Assembly: GCF_001447155.2 (NCBI RefSeq)
Contig: NZ_CP014754.1
Span: 1,488,001 to 1,552,000 of the forward strand
Direction: 5' to 3'
Length of the DNA: 64,000 bases
From: Marinobacter sp. LQ44
GTDB lineage: Bacteria > Pseudomonadota > Gammaproteobacteria > Pseudomonadales > Oleiphilaceae
The notes under the pieces were generated by a model. The model ran no database searches. It saw only the letters and a list, made by a program, of their open reading frames with translations, and was not told the DNA's origin. This document shows, piece after piece, positions 5,380 to 60,937 of the stretch. The position numbers were made by a program, and so were the translations under genes. Each line of letters starts with the position of its first letter. Position 1 is the stretch's first letter.

Positions 5380-5409
5380 TAGCATTGCGAATACATCTTT
5401 ATATCCTAG

Positions 5410-5993
5410 CAGGGCAGTCAGGTATTCCAACAACCATTGCTGGTGCAGTTGGCCATGAAGCAGCGCCGGGTAGTTCGACTGAAAGGCGGCGACCCCTACA
5501 TCTTTGGCCGCGGGGGCGAAGAGGCCGAGTTCCTGGTGGAAAACGACATAGACTTCCAGGTTGTGCCCGGCATTACCTCTGCCGCGGGTTGCGCCTCCTA
5601 CTGTGGCATCCCCCTGACCCACCGGGACTATTCCCAGAGCGTGACCTTTGTTACCGGCCACCGCAAAGCCGACCACAGCCTGGAACTGAACTGGCAGGTA
5701 CTGGCTGCGCCGGGCCAAACCCGGGTGTTCTACATGGGATTGCACAACGCCCCCACCATTGTCCGGGAACTGACCGCCCACGGCCTGTCCGGGCAGTGCC
5801 CGGTGGCCCTGGTAGAACGGGGTACGACTCCGCTTCAGCACATGACCGTCACCAACCTGGACAACCTTGTGGAGACCATTGCCCGGGAAGACTTCCAACC
5901 ACCCACGCTGATTATCGTAGGGGAAGTGGTACAGCTGGCGGAAAAACTGGCCCGCCCGGCACAAGCCGGCTGGAACAGCGCCCTGACCGGCCC
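5410..5993 (+). pseudogene. nirE: nirE remnant: uroporphyrinogen-III C-methyltransferase lacking its N-terminus
   Basis: Encodes the C-terminal two-thirds of a SUMT-family methyltransferase, which makes precorrin-2 for siroheme or heme d1. Readable motifs are VVRLKGGDPYIFGRGGEEAE, VVPGITSAAGCASYCGIPLT, VTGHRKADHSL, FYMGLHN and LIIVGEVVQL. A complete enzyme is about 260-280 aa; roughly the first 75-80 residues, including the N-terminal GxGPGDP loop, are absent, and an in-frame stop sits at 5407 just before the homology begins. At its 3' end it runs directly into nirN sequence in another frame. It is called nirE rather than cysG/cobA because of that neighbour. Almost certainly not a functional enzyme. 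Confidence 0.8.
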
Positions 5994-6902
5994 GGCGGCA
6001 TGGGCCCTGCCCTGTTGCCGGATAATTTGTCCCGGCTCAGAAAAGCTGACGCCGAGAACGTCATTCGCAAAGGTCGGCCCGCCACCCAGATGATGGGCTA
6101 TGAAGCCGTCCTGAACGACCAGCAGATCACCGCTCTGACCGAGTTCATGTACCAGGCGCCGACACACCCTCTGAAATGGGGCGAAGCCGAAATCCGCGCC
6201 AGCCGGGAGGTTATCCACCCTGAAGGCGCCTTACCCGACGACCCGATATTCGAAGCCGACCTGATGAACCTGTTCCTGGTGGTAGAAATCGGCGACCACC
6301 ACGTCACCCTGCTGGACGACTTCTTCTTCGACCACGGCTACCAGCACCTCATCGGCGCCGCCCGCGACGGCAAGCACGGCGTAGTCATCGACCTGGACAC
6401 CGGTAACACCGCCGCCGAACTGCCACTACCGGGCATGCCCCACCTGGGCTCCGGCATCACCCGGGAACACGAAGGCCGCCGCGTAATGGCCCCCCCCCAC
6501 TTCCGTGCCGGCGCCATCTCCATCATCGACATGGACACCTGGCAGGTGATCAAAACCCTGGACACCGAAGGCCCGGGCTTCTTCATGCGCAGCCACGAAA
6601 ACTCCCGCTACGCCTGGGCGGATGTATTTTTCGGCCCCAACGCCGACAAAGTCCACATCATCGACAAACAAACCCTGGAAATCGTCAAAACCCTGCAACC
6701 GGAACCCGGCAAAGTCGCCGCCCACGTGGAATTCGATCGCCATGGTGAAAAGCTTCTGCTAAGCATCTGGGACGACGACGGCGCCATCATTGTTTACGAC
6801 GCCGATACGCTGGAGGAAGAGAAGCGCATTCCCATGAAGAAGCCGTCCGGCAAGTACAATGTCTGGAACAAGATCAATTACGAAGAAGGCACCAGCCATT
6901 GA
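5991..6902 (+). pseudogene. nirN: nirN remnant: c-/d1-type cytochrome with 5' and internal deletions
   Basis: Frame shifted by one base relative to the nirE remnant. It starts inside the cytochrome c domain (GGMGPALLPDNLSRLRK, then ATQMMGYE) but lacks the upstream CxxCH heme site. It passes into the start of the d1 propeller (LFLVVEIGDHHVTLLD), then jumps to the propeller's second half (FFFDHGYQHLIGAARDG, GMPHLGSGI, GPGFFMRSHENSRYAW, AAHVEFDRHGE) and ends with KYNVWNKINYEEGTSH. The C-terminus fits NirN, the heme d1 maturation dehydrogenase, better than NirS or NirF. An estimated 150-200 residues of the propeller are gone. No stop codons interrupt the remaining frame, suggesting recent deletions. 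Function is very unlikely. Confidence 0.75.
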
Positions 6903-6948: not shown

Positions 6949-7061
6949 GGAAGATTGAGGGGCGGCCTCACAAAACTGTGCGGAGCCATGGATGGCGGAG
7001 CCCAAGCGTCACAAGGACGTGCCGAAGGAGCGTGTTTTGGGAGGCCGCCCCTCAATCTTCC
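6949..7061. repeat. Compound palindromic repeat, copy A
   Basis: Two outer arms (6949-6969 and 7041-7061) are perfectly complementary over 21 bp. Between them lie the inner hairpin with apex ATGGAT (6982-6997) and a degenerate core (ACAAGGACGT) shared with the copies near 31.0, 32.9, 33.1 and 60.2 kb. It sits between the nirN remnant and the Crp/Fnr gene. Confidence 0.8.
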
Positions 7062-16645: not shown

Positions 16646-18728
16646 GTTTGCCCGGCGAAGCCGGCAAACCCGGCCATCTGAAAGAAGATGGCGTCACCCC
16701 GACTGAGGGGAAGACAATCCGACTGGCAAGGGCGTCACTGGCCAACGGTGGGGTCTGAAGGAAGCCATAGGAAGTTAACGGTACACAACGCAAGTGAACC
16801 TGCTTCGGCAGTCCAGGTGGGTTAGCGTGCAAAATAGCGCGACGCCCGATACTCAGTCAGACCTGTGCTGTGTTTGAGGGTGGCATCGTTAACAGGGAGC
16901 CGGTGCAGTAACCGGGGAAGCCTGACACCGAATCCGGCGACGCCGGAGGCTGTGGCGCAAGGTGAAAGCCGAGGCCGCAGTCGGTGCGAGGTGGCAGATG
17001 AAGCCGTAGTAGTGAGGAAGTTCCGGCCTGAGAAGCCTGGTAACAGCGTGGAGGACAAAACCGGAATGACCGCTGGCGGAGGTTCAGCGGACCGGTCAGG
17101 GTCAAAAGCTCTGATCGGATGCGAAGGGCGGAAGTCATTAACGAGAATGACGGACGACGAGTGAGAGGTGGACGCTGTGTTCACAAGCTGCCCGACGGGG
17201 CAGGGACGTGCACTGGGGTACTGCGGGAACGCAGTGGCTCTGGTGTTCTCCGAACAAGGGAGTAGAGCGATACCGTGGCGGCAGATTGCCAGAGCGCTAG
17301 TACCCGGACGGATCGCCTGAAACAGACCGGCAGCCAGACCGATCCTCGAAGCCGTCACCACAGAGATGAGCAGGCATGAGGAAATACTACAGTCTGTACG
17401 GGCAGCTGCTGTCAAAGCAACGTCTGTACGAAGCCTTCAGACATGTCAAGCGCAACAAGGGCGCGGCCGGAATCGATGGGCAGAGCCTGGGTGCGTTTGA
17501 GGCGAATCTGGAGGTGGAGCTGTCGTGCCTGTTGCTCGAGCTGAAGGAAAAGCGCTATCGGGCGCAGCCGGTCAGGCGCGTCGCCATTGCCAAGGACGAT
17601 GGTGGTGAGCGTTTACTGGGCATTCCAACGGTTCGGGACCGGGTTGTGCAGCAGGCGTTGCGCAGCATCCTAGAGCCGATCTTCGACCCGGGCTTTCACC
17701 CGTCGAGCTACGGGTATCGTCCGGGACGCAGTGGTCACCACGCCATCGGCAAGGCGGAGTTGTTTATCCGTCGATACCGGCGTGAGTGGGTTGTGGACAT
17801 GGACCTGTCGAAATGCTTCGACACGCTCAACCATGACCTGATCATCCGTCAGTTCCGCCAACGGATCACGGACGGCAGTGTCCTGTCACTGCTGCGCCAG
17901 TTCCTGGAAAGCGGCGTGATGGTGGGGTACCACCTTGAAGAAACGGAGCTGGGAAGCCCGCAGGGCGGCGTGATCAGTCCGCTGATCGCAAACGCCTACC
18001 TGGACGCCTTCGACCAGTTCATGAAAGCGCGGGGGCACCGGATCGTTCGCTACGCGGACGACATCCTGATCCTGTGCGGCTCACGAGCGGGCGCGGAGAA
18101 TGCGTTACGGGTGGCCCGGCGCTATCTGGAAAATGAGTTGAAGCTGACGGTCAATACCACCAAAACCCACATCGCCCATAGTGATGAAGGGGTTAAGTTC
18201 CTGGGCGTGGTGATACATAGCAAGTACACCCGCATACAGGGAAAGAAGGTGGTCAGGCTTAAGCAGAAGCTGAAATCACTGACGAAGCGAAACCGGGGCA
18301 TCGGACTTGCGGCCATTATACGTGAGCTGAATCCGGTGTTGCGGGGCTTTGTCAGCTACTTCCGGGTGGCGAACTGCGCGCGGGTGTTAAAGCAGGTGAT
18401 GAGTTGGCTAAGGCGGCGCCTGCGCTGCATCCAGCTCAAGCAGTGGAAAAAGCCGAGTCGGCTGCATCGGAGGCTGAAACAGCTAGGTTACCAACCCCCG
18501 TTCCGGCATATCAAGATGCAAAGCTGGCGCAACGCGGCGTCCCCACTGGCCAGTCTGGCCCTGTCCAACACCTACCTGCACAATGACCTGAAGTTGATGG
18601 ATCTTGCGAAGGTCAAAACCGGCATCACTGCCCCCGAGTTCGGGGTAAGTTAATGGCATGAGCCGTATACGTGGCCCGTATGTACGGTTCTGTGAGAGGG
18701 ATGAGGCGGTAACGCCTCACCCTACTCG
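16646..18728 (+). mobile_element. Group II intron inserted behind the narK terminator
   Basis: A structured 5' region of about 730 bp with many hairpins (for example GGCCATCTGAAAGAAGATGG and CACCCC-GACTGA-GGGG) precedes a reverse transcriptase/maturase gene. Downstream is domain V, GAGCCGT...ACGGTTCT (18660-18691), then a domain VI hairpin with GATGAGGCG-GTAA-CGCCTCA and an end near CCTAC. The RT-containing intron points in the same direction as narK. The 5' boundary is placed just after the terminator T-tract and is uncertain by about 10-40 bp, since a clean GTGYG start is not seen; the 3' end is uncertain by a few bases. Insertion behind a terminator hairpin is the known habit of some bacterial group II intron classes. 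Confidence 0.85.
17376..18653 (+). CDS. ltrA: Group II intron reverse transcriptase/maturase
   Basis: 425-aa intron-encoded protein. RT blocks are readable in order: GAAGIDGQSLGAF (RT0/1), RLLGIPTVRDRVVQQAL (RT2), SSYGYRPGRSGHHAI (RT2a/3), VVDMDLSKCFDTLNHDLI (RT3), GSPQGGVISPLIANAYLD (RT4) and catalytic YADD at 226-229 (RT5), then RT6-7 (TKTHIAHSDEGVKFLGV). The maturase X domain follows (LNPVLRGFVSYFRVAN, LRRRLRCIQLKQWKKP). There is no C-terminal HNH endonuclease with CxxC pairs, so it lacks the En domain. All RT blocks appear intact, so the intron may be active. The stop lies 6 bp before domain V. Confidence 0.95.
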   Translation: MRKYYSLYGQLLSKQRLYEAFRHVKRNKGAAGIDGQSLGAFEANLEVELSCLLLELKEKRYRAQPVRRVAIAKDDGGERLLGIPTVRDRVVQQALRSILEPIFDPGFHPSSYGYRPGRSGHHAIGKAELFIRRYRREWVVDMDLSKCFDTLNHDLIIRQFRQRITDGSVLSLLRQFLESGVMVGYHLEETELGSPQGGVISPLIANAYLDAFDQFMKARGHRIVRYADDILILCGSRAGAENALRVARRYLENELKLTVNTTKTHIAHSDEGVKFLGVVIHSKYTRIQGKKVVRLKQKLKSLTKRNRGIGLAAIIRELNPVLRGFVSYFRVANCARVLKQVMSWLRRRLRCIQLKQWKKPSRLHRRLKQLGYQPPFRHIKMQSWRNAASPLASLALSNTYLHNDLKLMDLAKVKTGITAPEFGVS

Positions 18729-18753
18729 CTGGTGCGCCCGGCACGGGCGCACC

Positions 18754-29435: not shown

Positions 29436-29524
29436 TAGCGCATCGGATTATTTGCGGCACAATGCCCGCTTTCAGAATGCCCTACCTGCATCCATCCGCT
29501 TTACAGCTAATACCCGGAGATACC

Positions 29525-30847
29525 ATGACCACCCCGGAACTGCTCGCGCCCGCCGGCACCCCAGAACACCTTGAAACCGCCTTCGCCTATGGCGCCGATG
29601 CCGTCTATGCCGGCCAACCACGGTACTCGCTGAGAGTAAGGAACAACAGTTTCAAAGACATTGCAGCCCTTGGCGCGGGCATTGAACGGGCTCACGAACT
29701 GGGCAAACAGTTCTATCTGGTCTCCAACATTGCCCCCCACAACGACAAGGTACGCAGCTACCTGCGAGACCTGGCGCCAGTGCTGGAACATAAGCCCGAC
29801 GCCCTGATCATGTCCGACCCGGGCCTGATCATGCTGGTGCGGGAACACTGGCCGGACCAACCGATCCATCTTTCAGTCCAGGCCAACGCCGTCAACTGGG
29901 CCACCGTCGAATTCTGGCGCCGCCAGGGCATCAACCGGGTGATCCTTTCCCGGGAACTGGCCCTGAACGAAATCCGCGAGATCCGTGAAAAAGTCCCCGA
30001 AATGGAACTCGAAGTCTTCGTACACGGCGCGTTATGCATGGCCTACTCCGGCCGCTGCCTGCTGTCCGGCTACATGAACCACCGCGACGCCAACCAGGGC
30101 GCCTGCACCAACGCCTGCCGCTGGAACTACAAACCGGTACAACACAGCCACGACCAGACCGGCGACCTGATCGCCACCTCCGCCGACGCCGTGGAAACCT
30201 TCGAACCAAAAGAAATCCTCCTGGAAGAACCCAACCGCCCCGGCGGCTTCATCCCCGCGTACGAGGATGAACACGGCACCTACATCATGAACTCCAAAGA
30301 CCTCCGCGCCGTCCAGCACGTCGCCGAACTGGTCAACATGGGCGTCCACTCCCTGAAAATCGAAGGCCGAACCAAAAGCACCTACTACGTTGCCCGCACC
30401 ACCCAGGTCTACCGCCAGGCCATCAACGACGCCCTCGCCGGCAAACCCTTCGACATGCACATGATGAACGAACTCGAAGCCCTCTCGAACCGCGGCTACA
30501 CCGAAGGCTTCCTCCGCCGCCACGTACCCCAGGAATACCAGACCTACGAACAGGGCTCCTCCTACCTCGGCACCCAGCAGGTCGTAGGCACCATTACCGA
30601 TGCGGATGACCGATGGCTCACCATCGACGTCAAAAACAAATTCGCCCCCGGCGACCAACTCGAACTCATCACCCCGTCGGGCAACCTGCGCTTCAGCGCC
30701 GACACCATGGAAAACCGCCACGGCGAAACCATGGACTACGCCCCCGGCAGCGGTCACATCGTTAAAATCCCCAGGCCGGAGAGCTTGCCGGAGAAGCTGG
30801 ATTTCACCTATCTGACAAAGATTTTCCCAGAGAACAGAGCAGGTTAA
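29525..30847 (+). CDS. trhP: tRNA 5-hydroxyuridine synthesis protein, peptidase U32 family
   Basis: 440-aa U32-family protein, orthologous to E. coli YegQ/TrhP, which with prephenate helps hydroxylate U34 of tRNA independently of O2. It starts MTTPELLAPAGTPEHLETAF and holds the U32 signature IFVHGALCMAYSGRCLLSGY-type sequence (VFVHGALCMAYSGRCLLS), with further cysteines in GACTNACRW that can ligate a 4Fe-4S cluster. The C-terminal domain has KNKFAPGDQLELITPSGN. Start chosen at the ATG with homology; longer frames extend into non-homologous sequence. The second half is markedly richer in C at third codon positions than neighbouring genes. Preceded by an FNR-like box. Confidence 0.92.
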   Translation: MTTPELLAPAGTPEHLETAFAYGADAVYAGQPRYSLRVRNNSFKDIAALGAGIERAHELGKQFYLVSNIAPHNDKVRSYLRDLAPVLEHKPDALIMSDPGLIMLVREHWPDQPIHLSVQANAVNWATVEFWRRQGINRVILSRELALNEIREIREKVPEMELEVFVHGALCMAYSGRCLLSGYMNHRDANQGACTNACRWNYKPVQHSHDQTGDLIATSADAVETFEPKEILLEEPNRPGGFIPAYEDEHGTYIMNSKDLRAVQHVAELVNMGVHSLKIEGRTKSTYYVARTTQVYRQAINDALAGKPFDMHMMNELEALSNRGYTEGFLRRHVPQEYQTYEQGSSYLGTQQVVGTITDADDRWLTIDVKNKFAPGDQLELITPSGNLRFSADTMENRHGETMDYAPGSGHIVKIPRPESLPEKLDFTYLTKIFPENRAG

Positions 30848-30906
30848 ACCATCCCCAGGACCATCTTGAGGCGGCGTCCCTCAGCGGCCAGCACAATACA
30901 CGCGGA

Positions 30907-31011
30907 GTCGGGCGGGTAGGGCCTCCCAAAACCTTGCGGAGCCAGGGATGGCGGAGCAGAGCGTACAAGGACGTATTCACAGCGTGTTTTGGGAGGCCCT
31001 ACCCGCCCGAC
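30907..31011. repeat. Compound palindromic repeat, copy B
   Basis: Arms at 30907-30932 and 30986-31011 are perfectly complementary over 26 bp. Between them are the inner hairpin GCCAGGGATGGC and the shared core (complement of CTGTGAATACGTCC). Located just after trhP and about 120 bp before the suf promoter. Confidence 0.88.
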
Positions 31012-31133
31012 GCCCTGCACCATAAAAGCAGGCCAGGAGCGCCACTCTCCAGCACCAAAGTCTATCAAGGCAATAACCGCCCCCTTAGTGCCCCGAGGGC
31101 CGATTAAGGTATAATCCCTACACAACCGATTTA

Positions 31134-31367: not shown

Positions 31368-32816
<1,449 letters not shown>

Positions 32817-32852
32817 TCTTTATGGCCCCGCTGGCCTTGGTGGTGGTCAGCA

Positions 32853-32950
32853 AGCCGGGTGGTACTTTCCGGGACACGCTGTGAATACGTCCCTGTACGC
32901 TCCGCAAAAACATCCATGTTTTTGAGGGTCCCGGAAAGTACCACCCGGCT
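32853..32950. repeat. Compound palindromic repeat, copy C (in sufB-sufC gap)
   Basis: Arms 32853-32875 and 32928-32950 pair perfectly over 23 bp. The core ACGCTGTGAATACGTCC follows the left arm, and the inner hairpin is CAAAAA-CATCCATG-TTTTTG. Confidence 0.88.
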
Positions 32951-33033
32951 CGCTGCCGCAGACATCAGGCGGGCACTACGACAATTAAAGCAGTTGAAGT
33001 TAGGTAGGACGGCAAATAAACAAGTTTCGCGGA

Positions 33034-33186
33034 AGCCCTCGGGCAAGCCCTTCCGGGATCGTCAAAATCATGGATGATTTTGTCGAGCGATGACCGCCAG
33101 GGATGGCGGGAATGCAGATTTGGCAGGAGCATTAATCTGCCAGGGACGTATTCACAGCGTATCCCGGAAGGGCTTGCCTGAGGGCT
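33034..33186. repeat. Compound palindromic repeat, copy D (in sufB-sufC gap)
   Basis: Arms 33034-33059 and 33161-33186 pair over 26 bp with one mismatch. Longest copy (153 bp); it contains several inner hairpins, including CAAAATCATGGATGATTTTG and CCGCCAGGGATGGCGG, and the core in reverse orientation to copy C. Confidence 0.88.
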
Positions 33187-33269
33187 GATCCACCCAGTGT
33201 TGAGGTTAGCGATATAAACTCCAGGGTGGGGCAAAGAATTCAGACGGTTAAAAAGAGAGAAGCGTACAA

Positions 33270-34031
33270 ATGCTGAGCATCAAAAACCTGCACGCCTCCG
33301 TTGAGGGCAAAGAAATCCTCAAAGGCATCAACCTGGAGATCAAAGCCGGGGAAGTTCACGCCATCATGGGCCCGAACGGTTCCGGTAAGAGTACCCTGTC
33401 ACAGGTTCTGGCAGGCAACGACGCATTTGAAGTCACCAGCGGCGAAGTCACCCTCAACGGCGACAACCTGCTGGACCTGGAAACCGAAGAGCGCGCCCGC
33501 GAAGGCATCTTCCTGGCATTCCAGTACCCGGTGGAAATCCCCGGCGTCAGCAACCTTCAGTTCCTGCGCACCGCCGTGAACGCCATGCGCAAGCACAAGG
33601 GCGAAGAAGAAATGAACGCCGCGGAATTCATGAAACTGGCCAAGGAAGTCTCCAAACAGGTAGACCTGGACCCGGCGTTCCTCAAGCGTGGCGTCAACGA
33701 AGGCTTCTCCGGCGGCGAGAAAAAGCGCAACGAAATCATGCAGGCGCTGCTGCTCCAGCCGAAACTGGCCATTCTGGACGAAACCGACTCCGGCCTGGAC
33801 ATCGACGCCCTGAAAGTGGTGTCCGATGGTGTTAACGCCCTGCGCTCAGAAGATCGCGCTATTTTGATGGTGACCCACTACCAGCGCCTGCTGAACCACA
33901 TTGTGCCCGACTACGTGCACGTGCTGGCCGGCGGCAAGATCATCAAGTCCGGCGGCCGTGAGCTCGCCCTGGAACTGGAAGAGAAAGGTTACGGCTGGTT
34001 GGGCATCAAAGACGAAGACACCAGTAACTGA
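33270..34031 (+). CDS. sufC: Fe-S assembly ATPase SufC
   Basis: 253-aa ABC-type ATPase of the SufBC2D scaffold. Walker A GPNGSGKST, Q-loop AFQYPVEIPGVS, signature FSGGEKKRNE, Walker B AILDETDSGLD and H-loop VTHYQR are all readable. It powers the conformational change that exposes the cluster assembly site. The gene starts 450 bp after sufB, unusually far for this operon; the gap is filled by two palindromic repeats. Ribosome-binding site GAGAGAAG. Confidence 0.97.
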   Translation: MLSIKNLHASVEGKEILKGINLEIKAGEVHAIMGPNGSGKSTLSQVLAGNDAFEVTSGEVTLNGDNLLDLETEERAREGIFLAFQYPVEIPGVSNLQFLRTAVNAMRKHKGEEEMNAAEFMKLAKEVSKQVDLDPAFLKRGVNEGFSGGEKKRNEIMQALLLQPKLAILDETDSGLDIDALKVVSDGVNALRSEDRAILMVTHYQRLLNHIVPDYVHVLAGGKIIKSGGRELALELEEKGYGWLGIKDEDTSN

Positions 34032-58465: not shown

Positions 58466-58558
58466 TTTTTGCCACGGACACACACGGAATCACACGGACA
58501 ACAACAAAGTTATTTTTCTCTTTTGTCCGTGAACGTCTGTGAGTGTCCGTGGCAAAAA
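58465..58558. repeat. GCCACGGAC-type palindrome, copy G, between yibQ and hisF
   Basis: The left arm starts at TTTTTGCCACGGACAC and its partner ends GTCCGTGGCAAAAAA; they pair over about 33 bp with several internal mismatches. Because T runs end both sides and the element lies between convergent genes, it may act as a bidirectional terminator. Related to the element in the sufA-sufT gap. Confidence 0.78.
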
Positions 58559-59348: not shown

Positions 59349-60086
59349 TCAGTTTTTCAGGCTGTCGCAGTAGGCTTGTGCTTCGGCCACATCCAGGGTG
59401 CCTTCGTAGATGGCACGGCCGGTGATGGCGCCGATCACGCCTTTGTCAGCCACGGTGGCCAAGCGCTTGAGGTCGTCCATGTTGGTGACGCCGCCGGAGG
59501 CGATCACCGGAATGCCGCCCTCTTCTGCCAGCTTGGCGGTGGCTTCCACGTTCACACCCTGCATCATGCCGTCGCGGGCGATATCGGTGTAAACAATGGA
59601 GGATACGCCGTCGTTGGCGAAGCGCTTGGCGAGGTCTACCGCCATAACTTCGGAGACTTCGGCCCAGCCGTCGGTGGCTACGCGGCCGTCTTTGGCGTCC
59701 AGGCCGACGATGATGTGGCCGGGGAATTCTTTGCACATTTCGGTGACGAATTCGGGCTCTTTAACGGCTTTGGTGCCGATGATGACCCACTGTACGCCGG
59801 CCTTGAGATAGGCTTCGATGGTGTCGGCGGAGCGGATGCCGCCACCAATCTGGATTGGCAAATTGGGGTATTTCACGGCAATGGCTTTGACGATTTCGCC
59901 GTTGACGGGTTCGCCGGCGAAGGCACCATTGAGGTCGACCAGGTGCAGGCGGCGGGCGCCGGCGTTGACCCATTTGGTGGCCATGTCTACGGGGTCGTCA
60001 CCGAATACGGTGGAGTCTTCCATGCGGCCCTGGCGCAGTCTTACGCATTTGCCGTCTTTCAGGTCGATAGCGGGGATAATCAGCAT
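59349..60086 (-). CDS. hisA: ProFAR isomerase
   Basis: 245-aa TIM barrel catalysing the Amadori rearrangement of ProFAR to PRFAR. It begins [20 protein letters not shown] with catalytic D8; a longer frame upstream enters the palindrome and is rejected. Second catalytic Asp in [12 protein letters not shown]; phosphate loop [19 protein letters not shown] before the ATG. The gap to hisH, about 200 bp, holds repeat copy E. Confidence 0.97.
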
Positions 60087-60140
60087 TTTGTTCTTCCTCG
60101 GAGTTTGCCGTATGGGAGATGGCCGCCCGCCCACTGCTAC

Positions 60141-60230
60141 GGGGAGAGCCCTCCGGGACACGCTGTGAATACGTCCGTGTACGCTTGACTGCAGCATCCC
60201 TGCTGCAGACAGTCCCGGAGGGCTCTCCCC
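60141..60230. repeat. Compound palindromic repeat, copy E (hisH-hisA gap)
   Basis: Arms 60141-60159 and 60212-60230 pair perfectly over 19 bp. Core ACGCTGTGAATACGTCC follows the left arm; inner hairpin is CTGCAGCATCCCTGCTGCAG. Located within the his operon. Confidence 0.88.
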
Positions 60231-60295
60231 GCATCAGCGGGCTACTCGTTTCTTGCCCGCAAAATCATCCGAGCAGCAACGAACGAGTTTCTCCC

Positions 60296-60937
60296 TCAGC
60301 TTTTTCCAGTCCAGTTCGTGAAGTTTTCCAACAACTGCAGGCCTGCCCGGGCGCTTTTCTCCGGGTGGAACTGCGCTGCAAATATGTTGTCTCTTGCCAC
60401 CGCCGCAGCCAGGTCGACACCGTAACGGGTGCGACCGGCCATGTCGGCGTTGCCGTCGGCTTCGGCGTAGTAGCTGTGCACAAAGTAGAAGCGGTCGCCG
60501 TCCGGGATGTTGTGCCAGAGCGGGTGTTCTACGGTGTGGTACACCTGGTTCCAGCCCATGTGGGGCACTTTCAGGCGTTCGCCGTTTTCGGTGAGGTTAT
60601 CACCGAAGTAGCGGACTTCGGACGGGAACAGGCCGATGCCTTCCACGCCGCCATTTTCTTCGCTGCGGGCCATCAAGGCCTGCATGCCGACGCAGATGCC
60701 GAGGAACGGGCGGTCCTGGGAAACTTCTTTGACGAGTTCGACCACGCCCAAACGGTGCATTTCGGCCATGCAGTCGCGGATGGCGCCAACGCCGGGCAGG
60801 ATCACCCGGTCGGCTTCGCGGATTTTGGCGGCATCGTCTGTAACCAGTACGGTGCAGTCCGGGGCCACGTGCTCCACGGCTTTGCGGGCGGAATGCAGGT
60901 TGCCCATGCCGTAGTCGATGATGGCGACGGTCTTCAT
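60296..60937 (-). CDS. hisH: Imidazole glycerol phosphate synthase glutaminase subunit
   Basis: 213-aa class I glutamine amidotransferase supplying ammonia to HisF. Oxyanion and nucleophile site [11 protein letters not shown] with C82; His and Glu in [10 protein letters not shown]. It starts [26 protein letters not shown] precedes the ATG, and it lies 27 bp after hisB. Confidence 0.97.

Follow-up and report, generated by a model that had tools for sequence, protein, structure and literature searches.

What kind of element are the compound palindromes found in the genome of Marinobacter sp. LQ44? We analysed a stretch of 64,000 nucleotides (the window; positions 1,488,001 to 1,552,000 of contig NZ_CP014754.1, assembly GCF_001447155.2), in which a preliminary description had placed five such palindromes, at 6949, 30907, 32853, 33034 and 60141. 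All five lie at these places; in the list of inverted repeats of the window they make up five of the top seven entries (I2, I4-I7), with arms of 26-31 nt each that are 90-97% complementary. They are listed here with the strand of their GGA loops.

6949..7061, plus strand: element 1, 113 nt; outer arms 6949-6976 and 7034-7061; GGA loops CATGGATG at 6987-6994 and CAAGGACG at 7012-7019, plus strand; 3' of a gene with a cytochrome-d1 domain (5385-6902, plus)
30904..31014, plus strand: element 2; arms 30904-30932 and 30986-31014; GGA loops CAGGGATG at 30943-30950 and CAAGGACG at 30966-30973, plus strand; 3' of a peptidase U32 gene (29462-30847, plus)
32848..32955, minus strand: element 3, left member of a divergent pair; arms 32848-32875 and 32928-32955; GGA loops at 32911-32918 and 32888-32895, minus strand; between a SufB/D-type gene (31368-32816, plus) and an ABC-ATPase gene (33270-34031, plus)
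33034..33186, plus strand: element 4, right member of the pair with element 3; arms 33034-33059 and 33161-33186; enlarged core with three GGA loops at 33069-33076, 33098-33105 and 33141-33148, plus strand
60129..60242, minus strand: element 5; arms 60129-60159 and 60212-60242; GGA loops at 60195-60202 and 60172-60179, minus strand; between a class-I glutamine amidotransferase gene (60296-60937, minus) and a His_biosynth gene (within 59349-60197, minus)

Folded as RNA on the GGA strand, all five elements beat 200 of 200 dinucleotide shuffles, as did the opposite strand of the two elements for which it was folded (z -8.0 to -10.9 over the folds of both strands). The anatomy given in the preliminary description needs some correction. 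The core CTGTGAATACGTCC, thought to be common to all copies, is exact in four of the five but not in the copy at 6949, which has another subtype. The stem is longer than the 19-26 bp assigned to the arms, measuring about 28 bp over the family, and the core holds two hairpins where one had been proposed, with three GGA loops in the copy at 33034. At the site of the latter, two relatives (loci L032 and L039) have an ordinary two-loop core; compared with them, element 4 shows an added GGA hairpin and an extra stem, and outer arms that differ in a matched way. The orthologous site of element 2 likewise holds an element with other arms in several genomes of the genus. Both neighbours of element 5 are of histidine-pathway type, probably hisH and hisA, and share its GGA strand.

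Architecture and distribution of the family

Read on the strand opposite CTGTGAATACGTCC, an element consists of arm, hairpin 1, hairpin 2, a joining stretch (e.g. TTCACAGCG) and the complementary arm, such that an outer stem of about 28 bp encloses two hairpins, each ending in C-ANGGAN-G. We built a covariance model of the family (R1) and scored 150 candidates per genome. The pattern, sought in this way genome-wide, was found in at least 106 clear copies in the LQ44 genome (G000) and at least 118 in a close relative (G080) that is 93% identical to it over 4.5 kb. Both counts are lower bounds because of the fixed number of candidates and because R1 misses copies with an insertion of about 80 nt in hairpin 2; they omit 5 of 111 matches in G000 and 3 of 121 in G080, all of which scored below 43 bits and several of which were antisense of known copies. 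Two insertions of this kind, with further hairpins, were seen at 1168996-1169076 in G080 and 1651531-1651611 in G000; they interrupt different elements in the two species, at the equivalent point of the hairpin.

Across the 224 elements of the two genomes, 219 contain exactly two CANGGANG, and in every one of these 219 the two GGA are spaced 23-25 nt apart. The second loop letter can be any base, which is broader than the Y of AYGGAY. The outer stem is sharply bounded, the paired fraction being at least 0.82 through position 27 and 0.25 by position 31. As judged from the sequence, the common form of hairpin 1 (GCGGAGCC/GGCGGAGC) places A·G, G·G and G·A opposite each other; tandem G·A pairs in a stem are a trait of TwoAYGGAY, the Rfam family discussed below. 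Beyond the stem there is a conserved 3' tail: [AG]GGCTA starts 42-47 nt from the core on the 3' side of 34 of the 224 elements, at which distance on the 5' side it occurs in two, and it is preceded by CACCAA in part of the elements. GGCTAG within 50 nt beyond the 3' arm was found in 24 of the 224 elements and in none of the control stretches. A tail of the form CACCAAA..CAGGCTAGG was noticed 33-50 nt from the core, almost exclusively in 3' flanks (e.g. L145, L002), in T-poor, A/C-rich surroundings.

By a codon-usage open-reading-frame caller of our own making, used here in place of an annotation, the elements are mostly intergenic and often follow a gene; of the 80 single elements of LQ44, 79 had a called upstream gene, which was oriented toward the element in 52 cases. 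Wherever two elements lie less than 600 nt apart, their GGA strands diverge (13/13 pairs in G000, 19/19 in G080, together 32/32, representing about 20 distinct loci). As such pairs sit between tandem, convergent and divergent genes, divergence seems to be a property of the unit. GGCTAG stands on the outer (3') side of 13 of the 64 pair members, against none in control stretches.

The family extends well beyond these two species. The pattern GAATACGTCCNTGTANGCT alone occurs in 108 of 124 genomes of the genus, and the covariance model matched at least 72 of 194 genomes in a sample of the order (42 of 96 genera) and at least 46 of 274 in a sample of the class, in which the Rfam family RF01731 (TwoAYGGAY) matched at least 31 of 369 genomes. 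These counts, too, are lower bounds because few candidates were scored per genome (22 and 15 with the model in order and class, 7 with RF01731 in the class).

Covariation and change between orthologs

For covariation we aligned 51 of 56 copies of the LQ44 genome returned by a finder that demanded C[AT].GGA.[GT] twice, so that the invariance of the loops in this alignment is partly built in. The arms behave as first described, varying between copies yet matching within each: 18 of the 20 outer pairs change on both sides, with 99.5% of cells paired, and the whole structure holds 333 double-change cells against 88 in column shuffles. Within each of the two genomes the arms are unique to each copy; the closest non-orthologous 5' arms, at the end of a smooth distribution, differ at 2 of 19 positions. 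For G000 and G080 this rejects a simple mobile repeat whose arms are identical, although near-identical copies do exist in two genomes of other lineages, G376 and G344. Neither identical arms nor a lack of covariation, the two outcomes named beforehand as speaking against the pattern, was found in the LQ44 genome.

Which strand is under selection is suggested by the defects of the arms. Among 130 non-redundant elements (133 minus three chimeras), scored at positions 2-27 with G·T and A·C treated alike, the GGA strand shows 64 G·U (G·T), 6 A·C and 58 other defects beside 3235 Watson-Crick pairs (p 2e-13); in the inner stem (positions 2-21) of G080, G·U outnumbers A·C by 25 to 1. A mismatch that reads G·T on one strand reads A·C on its complement; the excess therefore suggests that the arms are selected for structure, apparently that of an RNA transcribed from the GGA strand.

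A flank-matched ortholog in G080 was available for 91 LQ44 elements, matched on both sides for 81. Loop changes were counted from model hits in the 77 ortholog pairs with equal cores. There, the fixed loop letters C, A, G, G, A and G changed once in 924 cells and the free letters in 60 of 308 (36/154 for N, 24/154 for the base after GGA), with 74 changes in the 2899 cells of the remaining core. At the level of sequence, this is the pattern of freedom expected of CsrA/RsmA sites. In the arms, with 24 pairs examined per ortholog pair, 343 pairs had changed on both sides and were still Watson-Crick, and the number of paired changes tracks flank divergence (r 0.68). The 30 least diverged elements (flank divergence of at most 10%) show 18 single and 4 paired changes; in the remaining 58, about 339 changes are paired and 60 are single; three chimeric elements of G000 (1155199, 1189998 and 2450232) were excluded from these counts and from the defect set. 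Single changes thus precede paired ones, the order expected if selection leads to compensation; at low divergence this favours a stepwise process over instant copying. Discrete replacement of arms, which we also considered, lost support when the divergence of the local intergenic sequence was allowed for.

Could the arms instead be kept matched by renewal of the palindrome at the DNA level, with strand switching or recombination copying one arm onto the other and no selection on RNA required? For rRNA, inversion of loops and repair of stems by template switching have been proposed (PMC8794818), and DNA-level events are visible here. Of 63 shared single/single sites with flanks on both sides, 4 have the core flipped in place, one of them with an identical 53-nt core inverted between arms that differ by two paired changes; a swapped pair lies at 2812972/2813187; two elements of G000 resemble chimeras of pairs seen in G080; and one of 13 near-identical copies in G376 has a paired G-C to T-A change, its neighbour having only the left half of it. 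In addition, paired changes are not enriched in transitions relative to the flanks, transversions being about as frequent in both (63:45 against 466:331 in the class with 1-6 paired changes, 126:109 against 600:392 in the class with 7 or more), which leaves room for a copying component. However, a DNA mechanism does not predict the preference for G·T over A·C, single changes exceed paired ones at low divergence, and unmatched chimeric arms persist in the G000 elements 1155199 and 1189998. We regard renewal as an unlikely principal cause. Of the two causes offered in the preliminary description, the evidence supports selection on structure; recent changes do not require copying that regenerates the arms, though DNA-level events do occur, as the inversion of cores in place demonstrates.

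Relation to TwoAYGGAY and probable link to CsrA

The preliminary description knew of no published name for the family, which is partly right: a named relative exists in TwoAYGGAY. RF01731 has 48 matches in the LQ44 genome at E<=1, all among the 106 copies and one of them over the cut-off (43 bits); its model aligns to the element over its full length, and it matched none of 14 control genomes. In the window, RF01731 had no match above its gathering cut-off. TwoAYGGAY has been listed as a probable RNA (PMC2864571); Gardner and co-workers report that its external stem is not well conserved and propose, from motif matches, that it sequesters CsrA (PMC4333381). Common to both are two hairpins with AYGGAY-type loops and an external stem poorly conserved in sequence; the LQ44 family differs by its nearly perfect outer stem of about 28 bp, its more than 100 copies per genome and its divergent pairs. 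A literature search, judged mostly by titles, yielded no publication describing a many-copy family of this kind. The loop C-ANGGAN-G equals the RsmA/CsrA consensus A/UCANGGANGU/A as given in PMC6849547, its occurrence having been counted on the core CANGGANG (219 of 224 elements).

The sponge RNAs CsrB/CsrC and RsmX/Y/Z, encoded by one to few genes with many sites each, resemble the elements in having several GGA loops that fit CsrA/RsmA sites; the LQ44 family, in contrast, has two sites in each of more than 100 scattered copies. GGA loops predicted to fit such sites are also described for Aln1a-c of Alteromonas (PMC5864184) and CsrR1/2 of Alcanivorax (PMC9788540). The model of RsmZ, which was the one sponge model run genome-wide, gave nothing over cut-off in the LQ44 genome. 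We discarded hits to eukaryotic miRNA families, regarding them as matches that long stems produce by chance. The LQ44 genome has one csrA gene; in the order sample csrA was found in 182 of 194 genomes, and in 70 of the 72 that have elements, which is weakly consistent with a role of CsrA.

The observed anatomy, covariation, strand-specific pairing rule, loop constraint and distribution, together with the csrA gene, argue for a real and large family at the RNA level, related to TwoAYGGAY and with an anatomy, copy number and evolution of its own, for which binding of CsrA is the most likely function suggested by the sequences. In our interpretation, the elements are probably dispersed structured RNAs of the TwoAYGGAY kind that dock CsrA, in more than 100 copies per genome. 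The CANGGAYG strand would be transcribed within untranslated or intercistronic RNA, and the outer stem of about 28 bp would present two short hairpins side by side, with their ANGGAN hexaloops 23-25 nt apart, so that each of the two RNA sites in a CsrA/RsmA dimer could hold one. The copies would then act as distributed docking sites, either as decoys that lower free CsrA, as cis sites on the host transcript, or as both. Loops and junction would retain their sequence, and the arms would drift and be compensated because the stem mainly needs to pair.

Several observations weigh against this interpretation. One of the five covariation measures, the number of pair types, lies within the shuffles (40 of 500 as high), and the inner stem of LQ44 shows a weaker G·U excess (18 against 5 A·C at positions 2-21, p 0.01); strand-biased mutation may augment the excess. 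With 27 of the 79 single elements facing away from their upstream gene, a plain role in 3' untranslated regions misfits some copies. Of the RF01731 matches, 47 of 48 are under the cut-off, and the other 58 copies are unmatched at E<=1. The co-occurrence with csrA discriminates little because csrA is nearly universal, and no csrA was found in two draft genomes with matches, G303 (19 matches, 88% complete) and G207 (one match). Finally, CsrA does not explain the conservation of the junction (TTCACAGCG).

The Csr/Rsm system is usually viewed as one protein opposed by one to few sponge RNAs. If the elements bind CsrA, some Gammaproteobacteria hold more than 100 dispersed two-site decoys, and the availability of CsrA would depend on the summed transcription of many loci. 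The 224 elements of the two species also constitute a large natural data set on how long RNA stems keep matched arms while drifting, and the link to mobile elements described below suggests that mobile DNA can spread protein-binding RNA.

Mobile elements and terminators

Are the elements, or were they once, mobile? In the lineages of G376 (13 copies read) and G344 (7 read), the copies are near-identical including their arms and lie between inverted repeats. In G344 the ends are of the CTAAATACGTGTTCCGAAT type and its complement, exact at both ends in three of seven copies, at one end in two and variant in two, and the sequence outside them differs or is unrelated between copies; their CTA...TAG form may reflect a TA duplication as in IS630-like elements. 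In G376, other, CAGCCTGTCGGACTT-type repeats flank both sides exactly in 5 of 12 loci read, and 3 of 13 copies have the element inverted with respect to the surrounding sequence. Outside the inverted repeats, some copies of the larger repeat around the element on the G376 contigs (L416-L427) carry an additional hairpin whose loop is CATCC(A/C)TG. The hallmarks of miniature inverted-repeat transposable elements (MITEs), with near-identical copies bounded by terminal inverted repeats in unrelated flanks, were found together in G344 and G376 only, with ends exact in part. The Marinobacter copies, in contrast, are mostly shared in position between the two species and have unique arms. A combination of both aspects is conceivable, and we put it forward tentatively: a non-autonomous mobile family with a CsrA-docking RNA body may have seeded the more than 100 decoys as a selfish or domesticated sponge, with the divergent pairs of Marinobacter as old copies.

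That mobility accounts for the palindrome itself, as the body of a MITE structured for transposition as single-stranded DNA and with a secondary role as RNA, appears doubtful. Beyond the inverted ends in G344 and G376, the constantly divergent pairs and the outer GGCTAG of some of their members speak for it; against it, 83 of 93 LQ44 sites are occupied at the same place in G080, no arms are shared within a genome, and the loop letters and the G·U rule fit RNA. Nor is there an unambiguous empty site among the nine seemingly empty ones that we aligned between G000 and G080, of which two turn out to contain an element interrupted by an insertion, four retain part of an arm or one half of the element, and three are bare, gain and loss not being distinguished in this comparison. 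Insertion of cores into pre-existing palindromes was not supported either: the spacer corresponding to 32816-33270 measures 42 nt and has no palindrome in the four relatives L035, L052, L053 and L056. Repetitive extragenic palindromes and the mosaic elements built from them (REP/BIME) are short dispersed intergenic palindromes, some in inverted pairs, and are similar to our elements in these respects, but the arms of the latter are no shared sequence and their constraint lies in the loops.

Transcription terminators or protectors of mRNA 3' ends with incidental loops, which the very stable stems and the mostly intergenic location, often after a gene, would suit, are quite improbable: averaged over the 224 elements, the C/A-rich sequence beyond the stem contains 5-9% T at 33-37 nt from the core and thus lacks a T tract, no part of the core is under stronger constraint than the fixed loop letters, and copies also lie between divergent genes.

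Two further features of the window may be mentioned. Another inverted repeat, at 58466-58558, has 36-nt arms that are 83% complementary and is made of CACGGACA-type words; similar words adjoin an element at 1630638 of the LQ44 genome. At curated thresholds, Rfam reports two group II intron families only for the whole window, group-II-D1D4-3 at 16735-16904 and Intron_gpII at 18658-18730, delimiting a group II intron at 16735-18730 on the plus strand; a 425-aa open frame at 17376-18653, between the two matches, probably encodes its reverse transcriptase.
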